This document shows positions 1,250 to 8,163 of a stretch of 64,000 nucleotides of DNA, piece after piece. A program made the translations under genes and the position numbers. Below the pieces are notes generated by a model. It worked only from the letters and a program-made list of their open reading frames with translations, was not told the DNA's origin and did not search any database. The DNA comes from Prolixibacteraceae bacterium (GTDB lineage: Bacteria; Bacteroidota; Bacteroidia; Bacteroidales; Prolixibacteraceae): contig JAIBEY010000072.1 in the NCBI GenBank assembly GCA_019459525.1, forward strand, positions 124,001-188,000, read 5' to 3'. The stretch's first letter is position 1. Each line of letters starts with the position of its first letter.

Positions 1250-1269
1250 TAACTTTGACCGACCGTTCA
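1250..1269 (+). promoter_or_regulatory. Promoter -7 box with overlapping TetR-type operator
   Basis: TAACTTTG at 1250-1257 fits the Bacteroidota -7 consensus TAnnTTTG. An imperfect palindrome TGACCGACCGTTCA (1256-1269; 10 of 14 positions match its reverse complement) overlaps its end. The TetR-family gene starts 20 bases further on, so self-repression through this site is the simplest reading. A matching -33 TTTG is not evident. The operator role is inference. Confidence 0.5.
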
Positions 1270-1288
1270 TTCATAAAATATCTAAACG

Positions 1289-1903
1289 ATGTGTCCTCGA
1301 ACATCACAGCAATTTGAAACCATCCGTCAGGAAAAGACCAAACTAATCCTCGATACCGCACTCGAACTGTTTGCAGAAAAGGGTTATCATATCACTTCAA
1401 TCAGCGACATTACTAAAAAAGCGGGTATCTCAAAAGGGTTGATTTATAATTATTTTGATAGCAAGGAAGCGGTGTTGCGCAGCATTATTCAAGTCGGTTA
1501 CGATACGGCCTACAATAATCTCGATATTAACCGCGACCATACGTTGGCAAGAGAAGAGTTTATTCATTTTCTCCGGATTACTTTTCGTTCTGTCAGGGAA
1601 AACCCGCGGTTTTGGAAGTTGTATAGCGCACTGGTTTTGCAACCCGGAATTCAGGATATGTTTGTGGCTGAGTATGGTGGAAAAGGGCAGGAGATACAGA
1701 AATTGTTGCTCGACTTCATAAAAATATCGGGAAGCACTGCTCCCGAGAATGATTTGATTGCCATTTCGTCGCTAATAAAAGGCGCTCATCTCATCCTGAT
1801 CACCGCACCCGATTTTTTCCCGGCCGGACAGTTCGAAGAAACCATTATCGATGCATGTTTCCGGCTGATACAAAAGACTGAAGTGGATAGTCTCAGTGCT
1901 TGA
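1289..1903 (+). CDS. TetR/AcrR-family transcriptional regulator
   Basis: A 204-residue one-component repressor. The N-terminal TetR DNA-binding domain is clear: helix 1 around residues 14-31 (TKLILDTALELFAEKGY) and a helix-turn-helix at about 36-57 ending in the family signature GISKGLIYNYFDSKEAVL. The C-terminal half is a typical variable ligand-binding helical domain, so the inducer cannot be predicted. The ATG at 1289 leaves only 12 residues before helix 1, which is normal. A palindrome overlapping a -7 box lies just upstream and suggests autoregulation. It heads a same-strand run of six genes for an envelope transport system, which it probably controls. No second copy of the operator was found before 2044, so control of those genes would need read-through or a site I missed. 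Confidence 0.93.
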   Translation: MCPRTSQQFETIRQEKTKLILDTALELFAEKGYHITSISDITKKAGISKGLIYNYFDSKEAVLRSIIQVGYDTAYNNLDINRDHTLAREEFIHFLRITFRSVRENPRFWKLYSALVLQPGIQDMFVAEYGGKGQEIQKLLLDFIKISGSTAPENDLIAISSLIKGAHLILITAPDFFPAGQFEETIIDACFRLIQKTEVDSLSA

Positions 1904-2043
1904 AAGTATTTCCTTCGATACGCTAAGTTGTTCAGGGATTGGAGCTTTCAGTGAGAATGTTAATTGTAAACAGAACGAATAACTAAATACATCACCGCTC
2001 CCTGAACGCGAAACAGCAGAAGGGAGCACTCAAAATAACAACA

Positions 2044-2784
2044 ATGAAAACATCTTTCCTCTTTGTGGTATTTCTGCTTGCACTTTCGGTTTCTGCCCAG
2101 GATATCAAAGAAATTGTCCGTAAGTCAGACGAGAAATTCCGCGGTTCATCCAGTACAGGAAGCTTTTCGATGACCATTGAACGACCAACCTGGTCGCGCA
2201 CCATTTCGATGAAAAGCTGGGCTCTCGGGAACGACTATTCACTGATTTATGTGACAGCACCTGCTAAAGAAAAGGGCCAGGTTTTCCTGAAGCGCAAAAA
2301 CGAAATGTGGAACTGGGTGCCTTCGATTGATCGGATGGTGAAGATTCCGCCATCGATGATGATGCAGTCGTGGATGGGATCTGATTTTACGAACGACGAT
2401 CTGGTGCGCGAATCGTCAATCGTGAAAGATTATACGCATAAACTGTTGGGCGAAGAAACGGTTGCCGGGTACCTCTGCTATAAGGTTGAGCTCGTTCCAC
2501 TCGAGAATGCGCCGGTGGTGTGGGGCAAAGTGCTGATGTGGGTCAGCAAGAAAGACTACTTATGGTTGAAAGCCGAATTTTACGATGAGGATGGCGTGCT
2601 GGTGAATACTGAAATTCTGAGTGATGTAAAAAAGATGGATGACCGCGTAATTCCGTGCCGTATGGAAATGATCCCGGCAGATAAAAAAGGACACAAAACC
2701 ATTATGGTTTTTGAAAATACCGACTTCGACGTGCCGCTGAAGGAAGACTTTTTCTCAATTCAGAATATGAAAAAGTTGAAATAA
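2044..2784 (+). CDS. LolA-like outer membrane lipoprotein-sorting protein
   Basis: A 246-residue periplasmic protein with a signal peptide (residues 1-18, cleaved near VSA-QD). It matches the family annotated 'outer membrane lipoprotein-sorting protein', whose fold is an incomplete beta-barrel with a hydrophobic cavity like LolA and LolB. Recognisable stretches are SFSMTIERPTWSRTISMKSW, MWNWVPSIDRMVKIPPSMMM (residues 89-107) and SWMGSDFTNDDLVRES. Proteins of this family normally sit beside ABC or RND exporters and are thought to carry a lipid or acyl chain across the periplasm. Here it precedes two permeases and an ATPase on the same strand. The gap before it (1904-2043) holds only a weak 9-base inverted repeat (1930-1938 with 1999-2007). 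Cargo is unknown. It is not the housekeeping LolA, which is usually encoded alone. Confidence 0.85.
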   Translation: MKTSFLFVVFLLALSVSAQDIKEIVRKSDEKFRGSSSTGSFSMTIERPTWSRTISMKSWALGNDYSLIYVTAPAKEKGQVFLKRKNEMWNWVPSIDRMVKIPPSMMMQSWMGSDFTNDDLVRESSIVKDYTHKLLGEETVAGYLCYKVELVPLENAPVVWGKVLMWVSKKDYLWLKAEFYDEDGVLVNTEILSDVKKMDDRVIPCRMEMIPADKKGHKTIMVFENTDFDVPLKEDFFSIQNMKKLK

Positions 2785-2848
2785 AAAGCCTTCCGTCAGC
2801 AAAAGCAGACGGCAAAGGATATGTCGCCATATAACTCGTAAGAGTCAA

Positions 2849-2876
2849 AATCTGGAATTTGAAACTTGGAACTTTT
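2849..2876 (+). repeat. 7-base periodic spacer abutting a start codon
   Basis: Four consecutive 7-base units (first AATCTGG, last AACTTTT) run directly into the ATG at 2877. The unit pattern is AAnnTnn. There is no Shine-Dalgarno sequence. The same unit family recurs before the next two genes and between zwf and pgl. Confidence 0.6.
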
Positions 2877-4100
2877 ATGCATACAAACATCAAACTGGCG
2901 TGGCGAAACATCTGGCGGAACAAACGCCGGACACTGATTACTGTGGCTTCCATCTTTTTTGGCGTGTTGCTGTCGGCTTATATGACATCGATGCAGGAAG
3001 GTTCGTACAGTAAAATGGTAGAAATTGTGGTGAAATTCTATTCCGGGTACATGCAGGTTCATCAGGCTGATTACTGGGAAAATAAAAGTGTTAACAATTC
3101 GTTCGACTACGATCAAGCCTTCATCGATCAGTTGAAGTCGAATCCTGAAATCGATTTGGTCATTCCGCGGCTCGAATCATTTGGGCTGGCATCGGCGGGA
3201 GAGCTAACACGCGGATCGGCTATTTTTGGTATTGTTCCTGAAATAGAGACTCAACTTACCGGCATTGCCGACAAAATTGTTTCAGGCAAATACCTGCAAG
3301 CCACTGACGATGGCGTGGTAATTGGCGATGGGCTGGCCCGATTCCTGAAACTGAGCCTGAACGATACACTGATCATTATCACTCAGGGGTATCACGGCGT
3401 AAGTTCTGCCGGTAAGTTTCCGGTACGTGGTATCATCAAACATGTGTCGCCCGAACTTAATAAATCCATTATTTACATGGAACTCAAAACCTGTCAAAAT
3501 TTTCTGGGCGCCGAAAACAAGCTGACTTCGCTGGTTGTGAATGTGGCAGATAACGATGTGATGAGGAAGGTGCTGAAAAAGCTCAAGTCAGAAATTCAGG
3601 CACCATTTTCGGTGATGAGCTGGGAGGAAATGCAACCCGAGGTGGTCCAGCAAATAGAAAGCGACCGCGCAGGAGGAGTGATCATGAAAGCCATTTTGTA
3701 CATCGTCATCGCTTTCGGAATTTTTGGAACCATTATGATGATGATTGCCGAGCGTCGCCGCGAATTCGGGGTGATGATTTCCATAGGAATGCAGAAAAAG
3801 AAGCTGGCAGTCATCCTGTTTGTCGAAACTTTATTTATCGGGGTGCTCGGAATTTTATCTGGACTTGCCGTCAGTTTGCCACTGTTACTTTTACAGGCGC
3901 AAAACCCAATTCCTCTGACAGGGGAAACTGCCAAACTAATGGAGGATTTTGGGTTCGAACCGTTTATGTTCTTTTCTACGGCTCCTGAAATTTTTTTGCA
4001 ACAAGCCATCAGCGTTTTTGCAATGACCGTGTTAATCGGTATTTATCCGATGGTGGCAACGTTGCGGATAAAGGAAATTAAGGCATTGCACGGAACATAG
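2877..4100 (+). CDS. ABC transporter permease, LolC/LolE-MacB type (first subunit)
   Basis: A 407-residue inner-membrane permease of the FtsX/MacB superfamily. It starts MHTNIKLAWRNIWRNKRRT, the usual cytoplasmic amphipathic entry, followed by one N-terminal membrane helix (about 20-40), a large periplasmic MacB-like domain (about 45-265) and three C-terminal helices (about 275-400) containing the typical cytoplasmic loop IAERRREFGVMISIGMQKKK. In-frame codons upstream (TTG at 2859) would add six residues taken from the heptad repeat, so the ATG at 2877 is preferred. It pairs with a second permease at 4190 and the ATPase at 5453 to form a LolCDE-like heterodimeric transporter. Such transporters use mechanotransmission to extract lipoproteins or lipids from the outer leaflet of the inner membrane. 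Substrate is not known; the LolA-like gene upstream suggests a lipidic cargo. Confidence 0.88.
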   Translation: MHTNIKLAWRNIWRNKRRTLITVASIFFGVLLSAYMTSMQEGSYSKMVEIVVKFYSGYMQVHQADYWENKSVNNSFDYDQAFIDQLKSNPEIDLVIPRLESFGLASAGELTRGSAIFGIVPEIETQLTGIADKIVSGKYLQATDDGVVIGDGLARFLKLSLNDTLIIITQGYHGVSSAGKFPVRGIIKHVSPELNKSIIYMELKTCQNFLGAENKLTSLVVNVADNDVMRKVLKKLKSEIQAPFSVMSWEEMQPEVVQQIESDRAGGVIMKAILYIVIAFGIFGTIMMMIAERRREFGVMISIGMQKKKLAVILFVETLFIGVLGILSGLAVSLPLLLLQAQNPIPLTGETAKLMEDFGFEPFMFFSTAPEIFLQQAISVFAMTVLIGIYPMVATLRIKEIKALHGT

Positions 4101-4189
4101 GGCATGGAGCAGAGGGCGAACGGCATGGAGAGAAACCTGCAACTCGTATCCTGCAACTTGCAACAATTTGAAACCTGAAATTTTGAACT
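4101..4189 (+). repeat. 7-base periodic intergenic array before second permease
   Basis: Nearly the whole gap keeps a 7-base period. GGCATGG occurs at 4101 and 4122, 21 bases apart. Units such as AACCTGC (4134), AACTCGT (4141), ATCCTGC (4148) and AACTTGC (4155) follow, then after a 3-base slip AATTTGA (4165) and AACCTGA (4172), reaching the ATG at 4190. No coding sequence or Shine-Dalgarno motif is present. Confidence 0.6.
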
Positions 4190-5410
4190 ATGATCTCATC
4201 AATTGCATGGAAAAATATCTGGCGGAACCGGGTTCGCTCGGGAGTAATAATTGCGGCCATTACCATCGGAATGTTTGCCGGAGTGTTTACTTCAACCTTC
4301 TATAAAGGGTGGATCAATCAGCGTCTTGACGCCGGAGTTGAAACGGAAGTGTCACACGTCCAGATTCATCATCCGGAATTCAGTGAGAATTTTGATCTGA
4401 AAAGCGTTATCCCGGATGGAGCAAAAATGGCTGGGGAAATAGCAGAAATGGAGTTTGTTGATGGAGTTAGTCCGAGGATGGTTGCCCAGGCCATGATTGC
4501 TTCATCAGAAACCGGAACCGGCGTAAAAATATTAGGCGTCGATCCGGAAAAAGAAAAAACAGTACTTAATCTATACACCAAAATTCCTGAAGGAAAGTAC
4601 CTGGATGGAGTGAAACGCAACCCAATACTGATTGGGAAAAAACTGGCAGAAAAACTGAAGGTTAAACTTCATTCCAAGTTGGTCATTACGCTTCAGGATT
4701 CGGAGGGCCATCTGGTGAGTGAGGCTTTTCGGGTTAGTGGAATTTACCATGTGGGCAACGGGATGTTCGAAGAAATGAATGTGTTTGTATTGAAATCAGA
4801 TCTGGCCCGATTTGTACAACTTGATGAAAATACCTCGCACGAGATTGTTGTTCACCTGAAGGATCACGACCAACTTTCGCAAAAAACTGAACTGCTGGCC
4901 GGAAAATATGACCAATCGCTGGTTCAGAATTGGAAACAAATGGCTCCGGAATTGGGTTTGCTTAACGAGTACGGAAATATTTACATCTACTTCTTTATCG
5001 CCATCATTTTGTTGTCGTTGGGTTTTGGCATTGTCAATACCATGCTGATGGCGGTAATGGAGCGGGTAAAGGAAATCGGGATGCTGATGGCTATTGGGAT
5101 GAGCAAATTCCGGGTCTTCTGGATGCTGATGCTCGAAACGGTTTTGCTGACACTTACCGGTGGTTTTATGGGTATTTTGCTCGGGATAGGGGTAACATTT
5201 GCGACCATGGGATCGGGTATCGACCTGTCGTTTTATGCCGAGGGGCTTGAAGATATGGGCTACAGTTCGCTGGTTTTTCCGGTAGTCGAATTCAAAATGG
5301 TATTGGTCATCGTAACTCTTGTACTGATAACGGGGATTATCGCATCCATTTATCCGGCCCGAAAGGCGCTGAAGTACAAACCCGCCGAAGCCATTCGGAT
5401 AGATATGTAA
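4190..5410 (+). CDS. ABC transporter permease, LolC/LolE-MacB type (second subunit)
   Basis: A 406-residue permease homologous to the preceding one but clearly diverged. It opens MISSIAWKNIWRNRVRSGV, has an N-terminal membrane helix (about 17-38), a periplasmic domain (about 40-255) and a C-terminal bundle of three helices starting near YGNIYIYFFIAIILLSLGFGI, with the conserved loop MERVKEIGMLMAIGMSKFRV. It ends IYPARKALKYKPAEAIRIDM, the classic FtsX-family terminus. Two different permeases side by side argue for a LolC/LolE-like heterodimer and not a MacB homodimer. Neither permease carries a fused ATPase; that is the next gene. Start is the ATG that follows the heptad spacer. Confidence 0.88.
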   Translation: MISSIAWKNIWRNRVRSGVIIAAITIGMFAGVFTSTFYKGWINQRLDAGVETEVSHVQIHHPEFSENFDLKSVIPDGAKMAGEIAEMEFVDGVSPRMVAQAMIASSETGTGVKILGVDPEKEKTVLNLYTKIPEGKYLDGVKRNPILIGKKLAEKLKVKLHSKLVITLQDSEGHLVSEAFRVSGIYHVGNGMFEEMNVFVLKSDLARFVQLDENTSHEIVVHLKDHDQLSQKTELLAGKYDQSLVQNWKQMAPELGLLNEYGNIYIYFFIAIILLSLGFGIVNTMLMAVMERVKEIGMLMAIGMSKFRVFWMLMLETVLLTLTGGFMGILLGIGVTFATMGSGIDLSFYAEGLEDMGYSSLVFPVVEFKMVLVIVTLVLITGIIASIYPARKALKYKPAEAIRIDM

Positions 5411-5452
5411 CCTGCAACCCGCAACAATTTGGAACTTGAAACTATTATACAT
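5411..5452 (+). repeat. 42-base spacer made of six 7-base units
   Basis: The entire gap between the permease stop codon and the ATPase ATG is exactly 6 x 7 bases. Units include CCTGCAA (5411), CCCGCAA (5418), CAATTTG (5425), GAACTTG (5432) and AAACTAT (5439). The exact fit between stop and start is the cleanest example of this repeat in the window. Confidence 0.65.
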
Positions 5453-6151
5453 ATGAACGTCATTGAAGTCAAACAGCTTGAGAAAATCTACAACGATTCG
5501 GAAGTAAAGGTGTACGCGCTGAACGGTGTTGATTTGCGCATCGAAGAAGGTGAATTTACGGCTATCGTTGGGCCATCGGGTTCAGGAAAAACGACCTTCC
5601 TGAATATGTTGGGCGGTCTGGATCAACCCACATCAGGGTTTATCTCCATTGGCGGAACAGAAATCAGCAAACTGAGTTCGTCGGAGTTAATCCATTTCAG
5701 GTTGCACAATATTGGGTTTGTTTTTCAGGCTTATAACCTGATTCCGGTACTTACAGCCAAAGAAAATGTGGAATTTATTATGCAATTGCAGAACAAACCG
5801 AAGTCGGAACGCGAAAGTCGCACTATGGCATTGTTGAAAGAAGTTGGACTGGAAGGTCGTGAAAACAGCCGTCCGAATAAACTTTCAGGAGGACAGCAGC
5901 AGCGGGTTGCTGTGGCACGTGCTTTGGCTTCGAAACCCAAATTTGTGCTGGCCGACGAACCAACCGCCAATCTGGATAGTAAATCGACTGAAAACCTGCT
6001 CGAAATCATGGAAGAACTCAATAGAAAGGAAAATGTAACGTTTATCTTTAGCACTCACGATCAGCGCGTGGTGAACAAAGCCCGGCGGGTGATTACACTG
6101 GAAGACGGAAAGATTATCAGTGATGTGAGAAAAGCTATTTTGCCACAATAG
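5453..6151 (+). CDS. ABC transporter ATP-binding protein, LolD/MacB type
   Basis: A 232-residue nucleotide-binding subunit. Walker A is GPSGSGKT (residues 40-47), the Q-loop is FVFQAYNLIPVLTAKENV, the signature is LSGGQQQRVAVARAL (from residue 144) and Walker B is VLADEPTANLD (from 165), followed by the H-loop FSTHD. The NLIPVLTAKENV segment is typical of the LolD/MacB subfamily. An in-frame TTG at 5429 would add eight residues encoded by the heptad repeat; the ATG at 5453 gives the normal family N-terminus MNVIEVKQLEKIY. It powers the two permeases encoded just upstream. The gene order permease-permease-ATPase without a MacA-like adaptor favours a lipid or lipoprotein transporter over a MacAB drug exporter. 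Confidence 0.92.
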   Translation: MNVIEVKQLEKIYNDSEVKVYALNGVDLRIEEGEFTAIVGPSGSGKTTFLNMLGGLDQPTSGFISIGGTEISKLSSSELIHFRLHNIGFVFQAYNLIPVLTAKENVEFIMQLQNKPKSERESRTMALLKEVGLEGRENSRPNKLSGGQQQRVAVARALASKPKFVLADEPTANLDSKSTENLLEIMEELNRKENVTFIFSTHDQRVVNKARRVITLEDGKIISDVRKAILPQ

Positions 6152-6258
6152 TAAGATTGAACACATTGTTTTGTTTTCCAGGCGAACTATGATCCTGTTG
6201 TGGTTCAGTAATTTACAAGTATCTCACAGTCCTGTTGAAATAAAAACGAATAAGCTCC

Positions 6259-6933
6259 ATGCAAAATATATTTATCCTCTTGCTGTCAAGCCTTTTCTGG
6301 GTTAGTCCTCCTGAAAAACAATTGGGAGAAAAGACCTGGCCATCTGAATTAAACACGGCCCGGGATGCTAATTATCTCGATAAGCTCGAACGAGAAGTTA
6401 TCCACGAACTGAATAAAGTTCGCACCGACCCCAAACGTTTTGCCGAAGAATATATGGAAGACCTTCGGGCTGCTTTTGACGGTAAAACGTTTACCTATCC
6501 GGGACAAACACCTGTTCTTTCGGCAGAGGGCATATTCCCGTTGAATGAATGTATTGAAGTATTAAAGAAAACCAGTCCGATGCCCTTACTTTATCCGGCC
6601 GAAGGATTGGCAAAAGCCGCATTCTATCTGGCCGACGATCAGAAAAAGCATGGTGGAATAGGGCATATTTCCAGAAACGGGATGACTCCTCAAAATCGGA
6701 TTGAAAAATATGGAGAGTGGGATATTTGTTCGGCTGAAGATATTACTTATGGAAGTTTCGAAGCGCAGCAAATTGTTATAGCCTTACTTATTGACGATGG
6801 CGTTCCTGACCGGGGACACCGCAAAAACGTGCTGAACCCAGGTTTCCGGTTCGCTGGTGTTTCCTTTGGTGGTCATCCAACCTATCAGGCGATGTGCGTA
6901 ATTGATTATGCCGGAGAATACAAAACAAAATAA
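6259..6933 (+). CDS. CAP-domain (SCP/PR-1-like) secreted protein
   Basis: A 224-residue exported protein with a short hydrophobic N-terminus (MQNIFILLLSSLFWV). The CAP/SCP fold is visible as VIHELNKVRTDPKRFAEEYM (around 48-67), GIGHISRNGMTPQNRIEKYG, AEDITYG and the CAP2-like motif GHRKNVLNPGFRFAGVSF. The conserved His and Glu of the CAP cavity appear to be kept (GHIS, SAED). CAP proteins bind lipids or sterols in eukaryotes and mycobacteria; bacterial roles are poorly known. It lies 107 bases after the ATPase and 12 bases before the barrel gene, on the same strand, so it is probably part of the same transcription unit. That context makes a lipid-handling role plausible, but this is inference. 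Confidence 0.82.
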   Translation: MQNIFILLLSSLFWVSPPEKQLGEKTWPSELNTARDANYLDKLEREVIHELNKVRTDPKRFAEEYMEDLRAAFDGKTFTYPGQTPVLSAEGIFPLNECIEVLKKTSPMPLLYPAEGLAKAAFYLADDQKKHGGIGHISRNGMTPQNRIEKYGEWDICSAEDITYGSFEAQQIVIALLIDDGVPDRGHRKNVLNPGFRFAGVSFGGHPTYQAMCVIDYAGEYKTK

Positions 6934-6945
6934 CCAAATTTGAAG

Positions 6946-8163
6946 ATGAGCCACTTTGAAAATTCATCAATTCAATCCTCAAAAAATAAAATTTGGAAAT
7001 ATTTAGGTATCTCATCCGTGGTATTTCTTTTTGCGGTTCTTCCGCTTCAGGCATTTGTCCAGGAAAGTAAAGTGAGTTTGAATGGCTATGTGAAAGAACT
7101 GTACATGTTTTATGCTCCTGAAAACGCGATTCCGGGAACGGATCTCGATTATATGGCCACAAATATCATACACAACCGGCTCAATTTTAAATGGTACGCC
7201 AACGAAAAAATTACTACTGTAGTTGAAATGCGTAACCGGCTGATGTTTGGAAATCTGGTAAAGGATTTTCCTGACTATCAGGCAACTGTTGATGTGGATA
7301 ACGGATTGGTCGATCTGTCGTGGATTTCGGCACAAAGCAGCAGTTGGTTTGTGCATTCCATGATCGATCGTGCGTATGTGGATTATTCCACGGGTAAATG
7401 GCAAATCAGGGCCGGACGGCAGCGTGTGAACTGGGGAGTGAACCTGGTTTGGAATCCAAACGATATTTTTAATAGCTTTTCGTACTTCGATTTCGACTAC
7501 GAGGAACGACCGGGAACCGATGCCCTTCGCGTTCAGTATTACACCGGAACCACCTCATCAGCCGAATTGGTATATAAGCCGGGACGCAATAATGCGCATA
7601 CTGCTTTTGCCGGAATGTACCGCTTTTCGGAATGGGATTACGACTTTCAGTTTATTGGCGGGCAAGCCGGAAACGACTGGGTGATAGGCGGAGGTTGGTC
7701 GGGCGATATTCGTGGCGCAGGTTTTCGCGGAGAACTTACTCATTTCGAGGCTCAAAACAATACCTCCGAAAGTGCAACAATCGCTTCGGTTTCCCTTGAC
7801 TATGCATTTAAAAATAGCCTTTACCTGCATAGTAGTTTTCTGGTTAACAGCGCGGGAAAAACCGGGAATGCAGGCGGTATGGACGTGCTTTTTAATCCCG
7901 AAATGTCGGCCAAACAATTGTCGGTTGCCCGCTATTCGCTTTTTGGTCAGGCCTCATTCCCAATTACCCCTATATTCTCCGGAAGTTTCTCCGGAATTGT
8001 AAATCCATCCGACGGTTCGTTCTATGTAGGGCCAGCTTTCACGTATTCACTCCTGAGCAATCTGGAACTAATGCTCACCGGTCAGCTCTTTTTCGGAGAT
8101 TCCGGAACCGAATTTGGCGATATCGGTCAAATTGCATTTGGACGGTTGAAATGGAGTTTTTAA
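6946..8163 (+). CDS. Outer-membrane beta-barrel protein of the ABC/LolA-like cluster
   Basis: A 405-residue protein with an N-terminal signal segment (about 20-37, YLGISSVVFLFAVLPLQA) and alternating-strand sequence throughout, ending in aromatic FGRLKWSF, the usual barrel-assembly signal. NIIHNRLNFKWYANEKIT, WQIRAGRQRVNWGVNLVWNP and the terminal strands resemble porin-like or DUF1302-like barrels that accompany RND/LolA-like exporters in Proteobacteria; that resemblance is from memory. TTG at 6940 is an alternative start, but ATG at 6946 is preferred. It is the last gene of the cluster and could be the outer-membrane acceptor or channel. A plain porin is the alternative. Confidence 0.72.
   Translation: MSHFENSSIQSSKNKIWKYLGISSVVFLFAVLPLQAFVQESKVSLNGYVKELYMFYAPENAIPGTDLDYMATNIIHNRLNFKWYANEKITTVVEMRNRLMFGNLVKDFPDYQATVDVDNGLVDLSWISAQSSSWFVHSMIDRAYVDYSTGKWQIRAGRQRVNWGVNLVWNPNDIFNSFSYFDFDYEERPGTDALRVQYYTGTTSSAELVYKPGRNNAHTAFAGMYRFSEWDYDFQFIGGQAGNDWVIGGGWSGDIRGAGFRGELTHFEAQNNTSESATIASVSLDYAFKNSLYLHSSFLVNSAGKTGNAGGMDVLFNPEMSAKQLSVARYSLFGQASFPITPIFSGSFSGIVNPSDGSFYVGPAFTYSLLSNLELMLTGQLFFGDSGTEFGDIGQIAFGRLKWSF

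Follow-up and report, generated by a model that had tools for sequence, protein, structure and literature searches.

It has long been asked how lipids and other hydrophobic compounds get across the periplasm, and for the Bacteroidota little is known. The question is raised here by a block of seven genes from a Prolixibacteraceae bacterium (GenBank assembly GCA_019459525.1), which combines motor, carrier, outer-membrane acceptor and regulatory switch within ~7 kb. The block lies in a stretch of 64,000 nucleotides (contig JAIBEY010000072.1, positions 124,001 to 188,000 of the forward strand) that we refer to as the window and whose own numbering is used throughout. What does such a block do? We favor the reading, with a probability of about 0.55, that it is an operon for an inducible, ATP-driven trans-envelope export line that carries a hydrophobic or lipid-like, non-protein molecule. 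The seven open reading frames (ORFs) lie on the forward strand between positions 1289 and 8163 and encode, in order, a TetR-family regulator (1289-1903; PF00440, 67.9 bits, E 6.5e-19), a LolA-like periplasmic carrier of the PF17131 or LolA3 family (2044-2784), permease A (2859-4100) and permease B (4190-5410), both of the FtsX/MacB_PCD type by Pfam and NCBIfam and ~27% identical to each other, a LolD-type ATP-binding cassette (ABC) ATPase (5429-6151), a secreted CAP-domain protein (6259-6933; PF00188, 39.7 bits, E 1e-9) and a DUF1302-like outer-membrane barrel (6940-8163). The original prediction, made from the letters of the window, had named these same seven kinds of genes, and the Pfam and NCBIfam matches together with a structural model of the barrel bear it out. 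Three of the ORFs were listed from TTG codons; from a reading of their translations, in-frame ATGs at ~2877 (permease A), ~5453 (ATPase) and ~6946 (barrel) are the likelier starts.

The first issue is whether these genes belong together at all. Loci for comparison were chosen by the LolA gene alone, with their flanks fetched afterward; they are the best matches, and arrangement counts made on them are not population frequencies. We define the head clade as carriers with a LolA profile score of at least 300, and we treat as repeats any loci that are identical over the last 180 carrier residues; removal of six repeats left 135 loci, of which 124 belong to the head clade. FtsX is the first recognized same-strand gene after LolA in all 118 head-clade loci with at least 1.3 kb of downstream sequence, and two FtsX genes, the ATPase and the barrel follow LolA in that order in 91 of the 98 with at least 5.4 kb, a count that allows unlabeled ORFs or the CAP gene between the labeled genes. 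The profiles used to recognize neighbors were built partly on the loci being counted, and 74 distinct loci (within L121-L200) were kept out of profile building; in this separate set, FtsX comes first in 70 of 70, the full order is kept in 53 of 56 and a same-strand TetR gene lies upstream in 56 of 70 loci. Over the wider collection a same-strand TetR gene is recognized by profile upstream in 79 of 120 loci. Co-occurrence across the phylum had been proposed at the outset as a check on the idea of a transport system, and it came out in its favor. The flanks vary between lineages while the order of the block stays, which refutes chance neighborhood for LolA, permeases, ATPase and barrel and confirms that these genes form one unit. 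That the seven are unrelated genes lying together by accident, as the gaps of ~90 to 140 bp between several of them in the window might suggest, is thus scarcely credible, though it may hold for the CAP gene outside the window's family.

The seven incomplete blocks depart from the common order in a handful of ways. There is no labeled barrel after the ATPase in L065, L079 and L088, the first of which does have a barrel relative, on the opposite strand and at the far end of its sequence; the ATPase goes unrecognized in L185, a single permease is recognized in L107, and L154 and L195 have the first permease only. Six others (L144, L155, L165, L172, L182 and L194) carry three permeases. Between LolA and the barrel the unlabeled ORFs are mostly 100-140 codons long and no additional ORF of the size of the labeled genes recurs among the loci, so neither a LolB nor a cargo gene is part of the block. 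The CAP protein was first put forward as a member of the system and a possible lipid binder, and as a core part it does not survive the comparison: the gene is found in 23 of all 124 loci of the head clade and in 22 of those 98 that have at least 5.4 kb downstream, and a CAP-less copy of the block (L067) occurs in the window's own genus. All of the CAP-bearing loci come from the window's genus or family or from records named Prolixibacteraceae, Sunxiuqinia, Draconibacterium, Mariniphaga or Maribellus, some of which genera we take to belong to this family. CAP is an accessory seen only in the window's family.

The motor of the block resembles that of the Lol system. Among solved structures both permeases are nearest to LolF and then to LolE, in line with their initial description as LolC/E-type permeases, and the ATPase, in which the Walker A, Walker B and signature motifs are all preserved, finds its best match among 204 families in TIGR02211 (LolD), at 240.8 bits, which is below that family's cut-off of 307.75. 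The permeases reach 102 and 122.7 bits with TIGR02212 (lolCE), far from its cut-off of 362.45; two other LolCE loci of the same genome do better, at 199.8 and 186 bits, and since even the best of them attains only 199.8, this model is a poor yardstick in the phylum. Another LolA, a member of PF03548, is also encoded elsewhere in the genome, which together with the better LolCE matches indicates that the window block is an additional set and not the housekeeping Lol set. In LolC, LolA docks on a periplasmic hook, whose coordinates we assume here. Permease A aligns with LolC across the hook region free of gaps in one profile alignment, and the loop found at this position, QGYHGVSxAGKxPVRG at about residues 176-191, ranks with the best-conserved parts of the periplasmic domain, with only 6 of 185 windows of that domain as conserved; permease B is gapped or shorter than LolC here, and 20 of its 183 windows are as conserved.

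The carrier passes the PF17131 cut-off (30 bits) with 202.9 bits (E 4.4e-60) across positions 1-184 of 184. PF03548, the family of classical LolA, is absent from its matches at E<=1, which are PF17131, PF03888 and PF14371. By eye it has a signal peptide and no lipobox. Its model (mean predicted local distance difference test, pLDDT, 90.8) superposes best on LolA3 of Porphyromonas gingivalis (PGN0947, PDB 9tp6; Z 25.8, root-mean-square deviation (rmsd) 2.9, 224 residues, 25% identity) and nearly as well on the DUF1329 protein 4z48 (Z 25.7, rmsd 2.6, 225 residues aligned), one of three further LolA-superfamily or DUF1329 structures that match at Z 23.0 to 25.7; the matches are lower for P. gingivalis LolB (Z 14.4) and for classical LolA (Z ~9 to 12). 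The 9tp6 protein is retrieved by the carrier profile, yet it scores 221.5 bits with a carrier (L111) that is linked to a pump of the resistance-nodulation-division (RND) type, which places it nearer to the RND group.

Pumps of two kinds are thus found beside carriers of this superfamily. Among 175 loci the pump near the carrier is ABC in 149, RND in 12, both in 1 and neither in 13; with four repeats removed, ABC accounts for 145 of 171. The 13 pump-less loci comprise 9 outside the head clade and 4 within it (L078, L121, L177 and L221) that have little or no downstream sequence. In a tree of 69 carriers, which included the window and 30 randomly drawn head-clade rows and was rooted at its midpoint with several long branches, the window clade (34 rows, support 100/99) stands apart from a clade of RND-linked and stand-alone carriers (20 rows, 100/99), and the ABC label requires five changes and the RND label two. 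An Arg-Pro pair that follows strand 1 of the carrier is present in 123 of 132 head-clade carriers (127 of 136 before repeats were removed), in 1 of 18 other ABC-linked carriers and in none of the 12 RND-linked or the 9 stand-alone ones. We considered equating this pair with R43 of LolA and dropped the idea: hhalign to E. coli LolA yields no alignment that can be used (E 0.1), and a strand count, with strand positions in E. coli LolA that we assume, puts Arg-Pro one hairpin earlier.

As side observations, the stand-alone PF17131 carriers with no recognized pump nearby occur at nine loci (L239-L246 and L248), and the eight of them in the tree form a clade of their own beside the RND-linked carriers. 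Very divergent carriers are also found in an ATPase-FtsX-LolA arrangement, mostly with a barrel behind (L235-L237, L247 and L249-L252).

The barrel is where the ABC and RND lines meet. Its AlphaFold2 model (pLDDT 90.8) shows 19 strands, all but one of them long, and its best fold matches are outer-membrane proteins, as its initial label had it: the Occ/OprD porins at Z ~24 (rmsd 2.6 to 3.2, 290-316 residues aligned) and AlgE at Z 22.5, matches that speak to a porin-like fold and not to a substrate. The top Foldseek match, OmpM1 of Veillonella (E 7e-13, TM 0.49), is likewise a porin-like resemblance only; no DUF1302 structure is listed there, an absence from which nothing follows. The protein matches no Pfam family at E<=0.1 and has no sequence relatives in the PDB at E<=10; DUF1302 (PF06980) is matched by 3 of 27 of its relatives, with a best E of 3.9e-5. 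It carries a conserved motif, GRQRxNWG...NPND(I/L)FN...DYEERPGxD. By hhalign the barrel is homologous to those of RND-LolA operons (99%, E 7e-18). This first comparison included the divergent RND rows L115 and L118, the latter of which already matched the window-type profile; with the five close rows alone the result is weaker and still clear (97%, E 4.9e-11). The analogy drawn from the start, that an ABC pump here takes the place of an RND pump, is therefore well founded, and RND-LolA-barrel loci exist within the Bacteroidota themselves (L110-L116). It is nearly an even bet, in our judgment, that the carrier and the DUF1302-like barrel constitute an all-purpose module for delivery to the outer membrane, to which motors of different kinds, LolF-type ABC or RND, became coupled on more than one occasion, with the window holding the ABC form, an undescribed lipid-export pathway of the Bacteroidota and neighboring phyla with a ligand-sensing switch of its own.

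For the RND cousins there is experimental literature, which we cite by PubMed Central (PMC) identifiers. AmeABCD of Castellaniella, with an RND pump, a DUF1302 barrel and a LolA-superfamily protein, exports toxic monoterpenes, and its deletion raises dye accumulation, which points to export (PMC6394551). A fusion of MMPL and LolA is raised along with a porin during growth on a C28 alkane (PMC6304351). In Pseudomonas putida, PP_0765 and PP_0766 (DUF1302 and DUF1329) are needed for growth on Tween 20, and PP_0765, PP_0766, PP_2018 and PP_2019 have been proposed as a transport system in the RND version (PMC10866462). A small hydrophobic cargo is favored for the window's line because these cousins (AmeABCD, the MMPL-LolA fusion and PP_0765/PP_0766) act on hydrophobic compounds. 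The same observations lend themselves to traffic in the opposite direction, in which the barrel would let in some hydrophobic molecule, or lipid that the outer membrane has in excess, for the carrier and pump to bring inward, since growth on Tween 20 or long alkanes calls on or raises the cousins and the barrel resembles substrate porins in its fold. The AmeABCD deletion argues for export instead. Pumps of the LolCDE and MacB type, moreover, work outward, and retrograde or uptake transport is accordingly unlikely in our estimation.

What sets the ABC line further apart is its switch. A consensus operator, TGACYGAMCGKTCRGTCA, was derived by visual inspection of 18 loci and sought with up to three mismatches, loci with too little upstream sequence having been dropped. 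Of 75 TetR-headed operons, 64 carry it close to the start of TetR, namely 51 of the 57 not used for the consensus and 13 of the 18 that were, against a background of 14 sites in 1.76 Mb, or 0.0023 per stretch of equal length. In the window it is an 18-bp imperfect palindrome, TGACCGACCGTTCATTCA, at 1256-1273, which is strand-neutral and is the sole site in the 5.54-Mb genome at up to one mismatch, the one level sought genome-wide. Operons without a same-strand TetR gene have the operator in 3 of 45 cases, two of which (L164 and L178) have a divergent TetR gene; it is also present in L214, L223, L224 and L225, which lie outside the count of 75 and of which the last two again have a divergent TetR gene, whereas L226 is a repeat of L150, one of the misses in that count. 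A putative promoter element, TAACTTTG, at 1250-1257 on the forward strand overlaps the operator and fits TAnnTTTG, which we take to be the Bacteroidota -7 consensus; in 46 of 64 operator-bearing operons such a box runs into the beginning of the operator, with a chance expectation of ~0.004 per site. Given the recurrence of the site near TetR and its overlap with the -7 box, repression of the operon by its own TetR protein through this predicted operator is most likely. Local control by TetR is common for ligand-induced exporters, in keeping with the inducible line that we favor.

We had entertained an operator common to ABC and RND operons and dropped it, as none was found in the 12 RND loci scanned at up to three mismatches; the inducing signal need not, therefore, match that of the RND lines. 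The TetR proteins of the RND loci that were checked match the window's over the DNA-binding part only, and most of the PDB matches listed for the window's TetR cover little past the end of that part, with a few extending to residue 134-152. One may ask whether the line simply serves detoxification, as a pump that rids the cell of hydrophobic drugs or solvents by the same outward machinery, with an exogenous cargo and no physiological lipid. Local control through an operator of its own, the uneven occurrence of the block among relatives and the AmeABCD precedent (PMC6394551) would all suit such a pump. No MacA adaptor or TolC-like protein is found among the seven genes by their Pfam and NCBIfam labels, and the fixed pairing of carrier and barrel suggests delivery into the outer membrane, so that we regard detoxification as decidedly improbable. 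The original prediction had made the missing MacA its argument against drug export; the absence holds within the block, and the argument built on it is weak, as AmeABCD exports toxic monoterpenes (PMC6394551).

The kinship of the motor invites a different alternative, a dedicated lipoprotein-sorting line in which a LolF-like pump with its own LolA would serve a barrel that accepts, or exposes at the surface, one class of outer-membrane lipoproteins. The nearest solved permeases do release lipoproteins and the ATPase scores best with LolD, and alternative routes of lipoprotein trafficking are suspected in P. gingivalis (PMC13103446). Set against this are the lack of a recurring extra gene of similar size inside the block, the TetR control with its one close genomic site, which would be odd for lipoprotein sorting, and the pairing of homologous carriers and barrels with RND pumps. 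We know of no RND pump that moves lipoproteins. Deletion of lolA3 in Flavobacterium johnsoniae, moreover, leaves gliding and type IX secretion intact and P. gingivalis LolB hardly binds LolA3, although the LolA3 proteins concerned may belong to other clades (PMC11885536, PMC13103446). We consider a lipoprotein line doubtful, if with a real chance of being right.

An export line for a lipid-like molecule would, from the gene set and its order, the operator and the homologies, operate as follows, with repression, direction, docking and cargo being the parts that we infer. In the absence of ligand, TetR would sit on the palindrome that overlaps the -7 box and keep its own operon off; the site is recognized by its sequence and binding is presumed. 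When the substrate or a related molecule accumulates, TetR would release the operator. Permeases A and B with the LolD-type ATPase would then lift an amphiphile from the outer leaflet of the inner membrane, much as LolCDE does with lipoproteins, and the carrier may dock on permease A through the conserved loop at the hook position, take the cargo into its hydrophobic groove and cross the periplasm. Taking the part of LolB, the DUF1302-like barrel would finally receive the cargo and insert it into, or release it from, the outer membrane, with CAP as a family-specific add-on. The predicted operator, the predicted carrier-docking loop and the conserved barrel motif offer handles on these steps.

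Several points weigh against this reading. No biosynthetic or cargo gene recurs in the block, and the kinship of the permeases to lipoprotein-releasing LolF and LolE fits a lipoprotein cargo equally well. The cousins cited above run on an RND pump, and growth on Tween 20 or alkanes could mean uptake. The hook assignment is thin, with one profile alignment, assumed coordinates, a permease A that is gapped against LolE and a fairly conserved region in permease B. The carrier goes unmatched in 15 of 61 relatives. As for the switch, a same-strand TetR gene is unrecognized by profile in 41 of 120 loci, and at least two loci have another regulator upstream of LolA, a MerR-type gene in L064 and a MarR-type gene in L097, with the same transport core behind it; the switch can be exchanged far more readily than that core.

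Compared with known systems, the window's line shares FtsX/MacB_PCD permeases, a LolD-type ATPase and a LolA-fold carrier with LolCDE-LolA(-LolB) and LolF, and differs from them in scoring below all of the curated Lol cut-offs, in a carrier of PF17131 instead of PF03548, in having a barrel and no LolB and in being headed by TetR. With the RND or MMPL lines that include LolA and DUF1302 proteins it shares a homologous barrel (that of the Bacteroidota RND loci), the same carrier superfamily and, often, TetR; its pump is ABC, its carriers fall in a separate, supported clade and no copy of its operator turned up in the RND loci scanned. A MacB-type permease domain is held in common with MacAB-TolC, whose MacB is a fused ATPase-permease, whereas the ATPase of the block is a separate protein and none of the seven genes resembles MacA or TolC. 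The carrier has the fold of LolA3 from P. gingivalis, which is itself nearer to the RND-linked carriers; the LolA3 family is in print with its function given as unknown (PMC11885536, PMC13103446), and the operon may hint at a role for these orphan proteins. The block had been called undescribed. In the open PMC literature, with preprints and subscription papers outside the search, we found no description of the ABC version, and to that extent the term stands; LolA3 (PMC11885536, PMC13103446) is already published and the RND version has been published as a proposal (PMC10866462), and what is new here is the ABC-driven form.

Occurrence was surveyed within the Bacteroidota and near phyla. PF17131 is matched in 164 of 296 sampled genomes of the phylum at E<=0.001, with 118 above the Pfam cut-off, and the window's LolA-like protein in 46 of the 61 genomes of relatives; its own genome has one such match. 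The records of the loci come from Bacteroidales, Saprospiraceae, Cyclobacteriaceae and Balneolaceae and from metagenome-assembled genomes named Chlorobiota, Delongbacteria and Gemmatimonadetes, names that can be wrong, as in the "Chlorobiota" record L127 (JAADGO010000156.1), which shares its carrier with L071 of the window's own family. Named genera with the operon are Draconibacterium, Mariniphaga, Maribellus, Sunxiuqinia and Echinicola. Genes inserted in or following the block, each examined at a single locus, offer no clue to the cargo: L187 has a glycosyltransferase, L144 a peptidase M14, L104 a hydrolase and L156 an acyltransferase-like gene. A short gene that the window does not have stands between LolA and permease A in five loci (L062:9104-9472, L063:8399-8767, L064:10474-10863, L075:10489-10854 and L087:9001-9369); the one in L063 encodes a 23S-rRNA-intervening-sequence protein (PF05635), and the other four look alike by eye.

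Within the window's genus there is a second ABC arrangement, ATPase-FtsX-FtsX-LolA, made of the same kinds of parts and with a weak barrel match in front in several loci. It differs from the window in gene order, in a carrier that is 26-32% identical to the window's and in the operator, which was not found in L119, L120 and L217. The second-type carrier follows ATPase-FtsX-FtsX wherever the flank suffices (L119, L120 and L254-L261). Among 23 genomes of the genus (G000-G022) ten have the window-type carrier, ten the 26-32%-identity carrier, three neither and none both; several genomes of other genera of the family have the two types together, and the counts are uncorrected for relatedness. One RND locus, L116, has the order TetR-RND-LolA-barrel-ATPase-ATPase and resembles iron-responsive operons of P. 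gingivalis and Prevotella that contain MMPL, LolA-like, hypothetical and ABC ATP-binding genes (PMC10434189). In P. gingivalis, where these are RND lines, genes PG1175-81 rise 13- to 136-fold without iron (PMC10434189), and a TetR-MMPL-LolA-hypothetical group tops the genes that excess hemin lowers, with log2 changes of -7.4 to -8.1 (PMC10470040).

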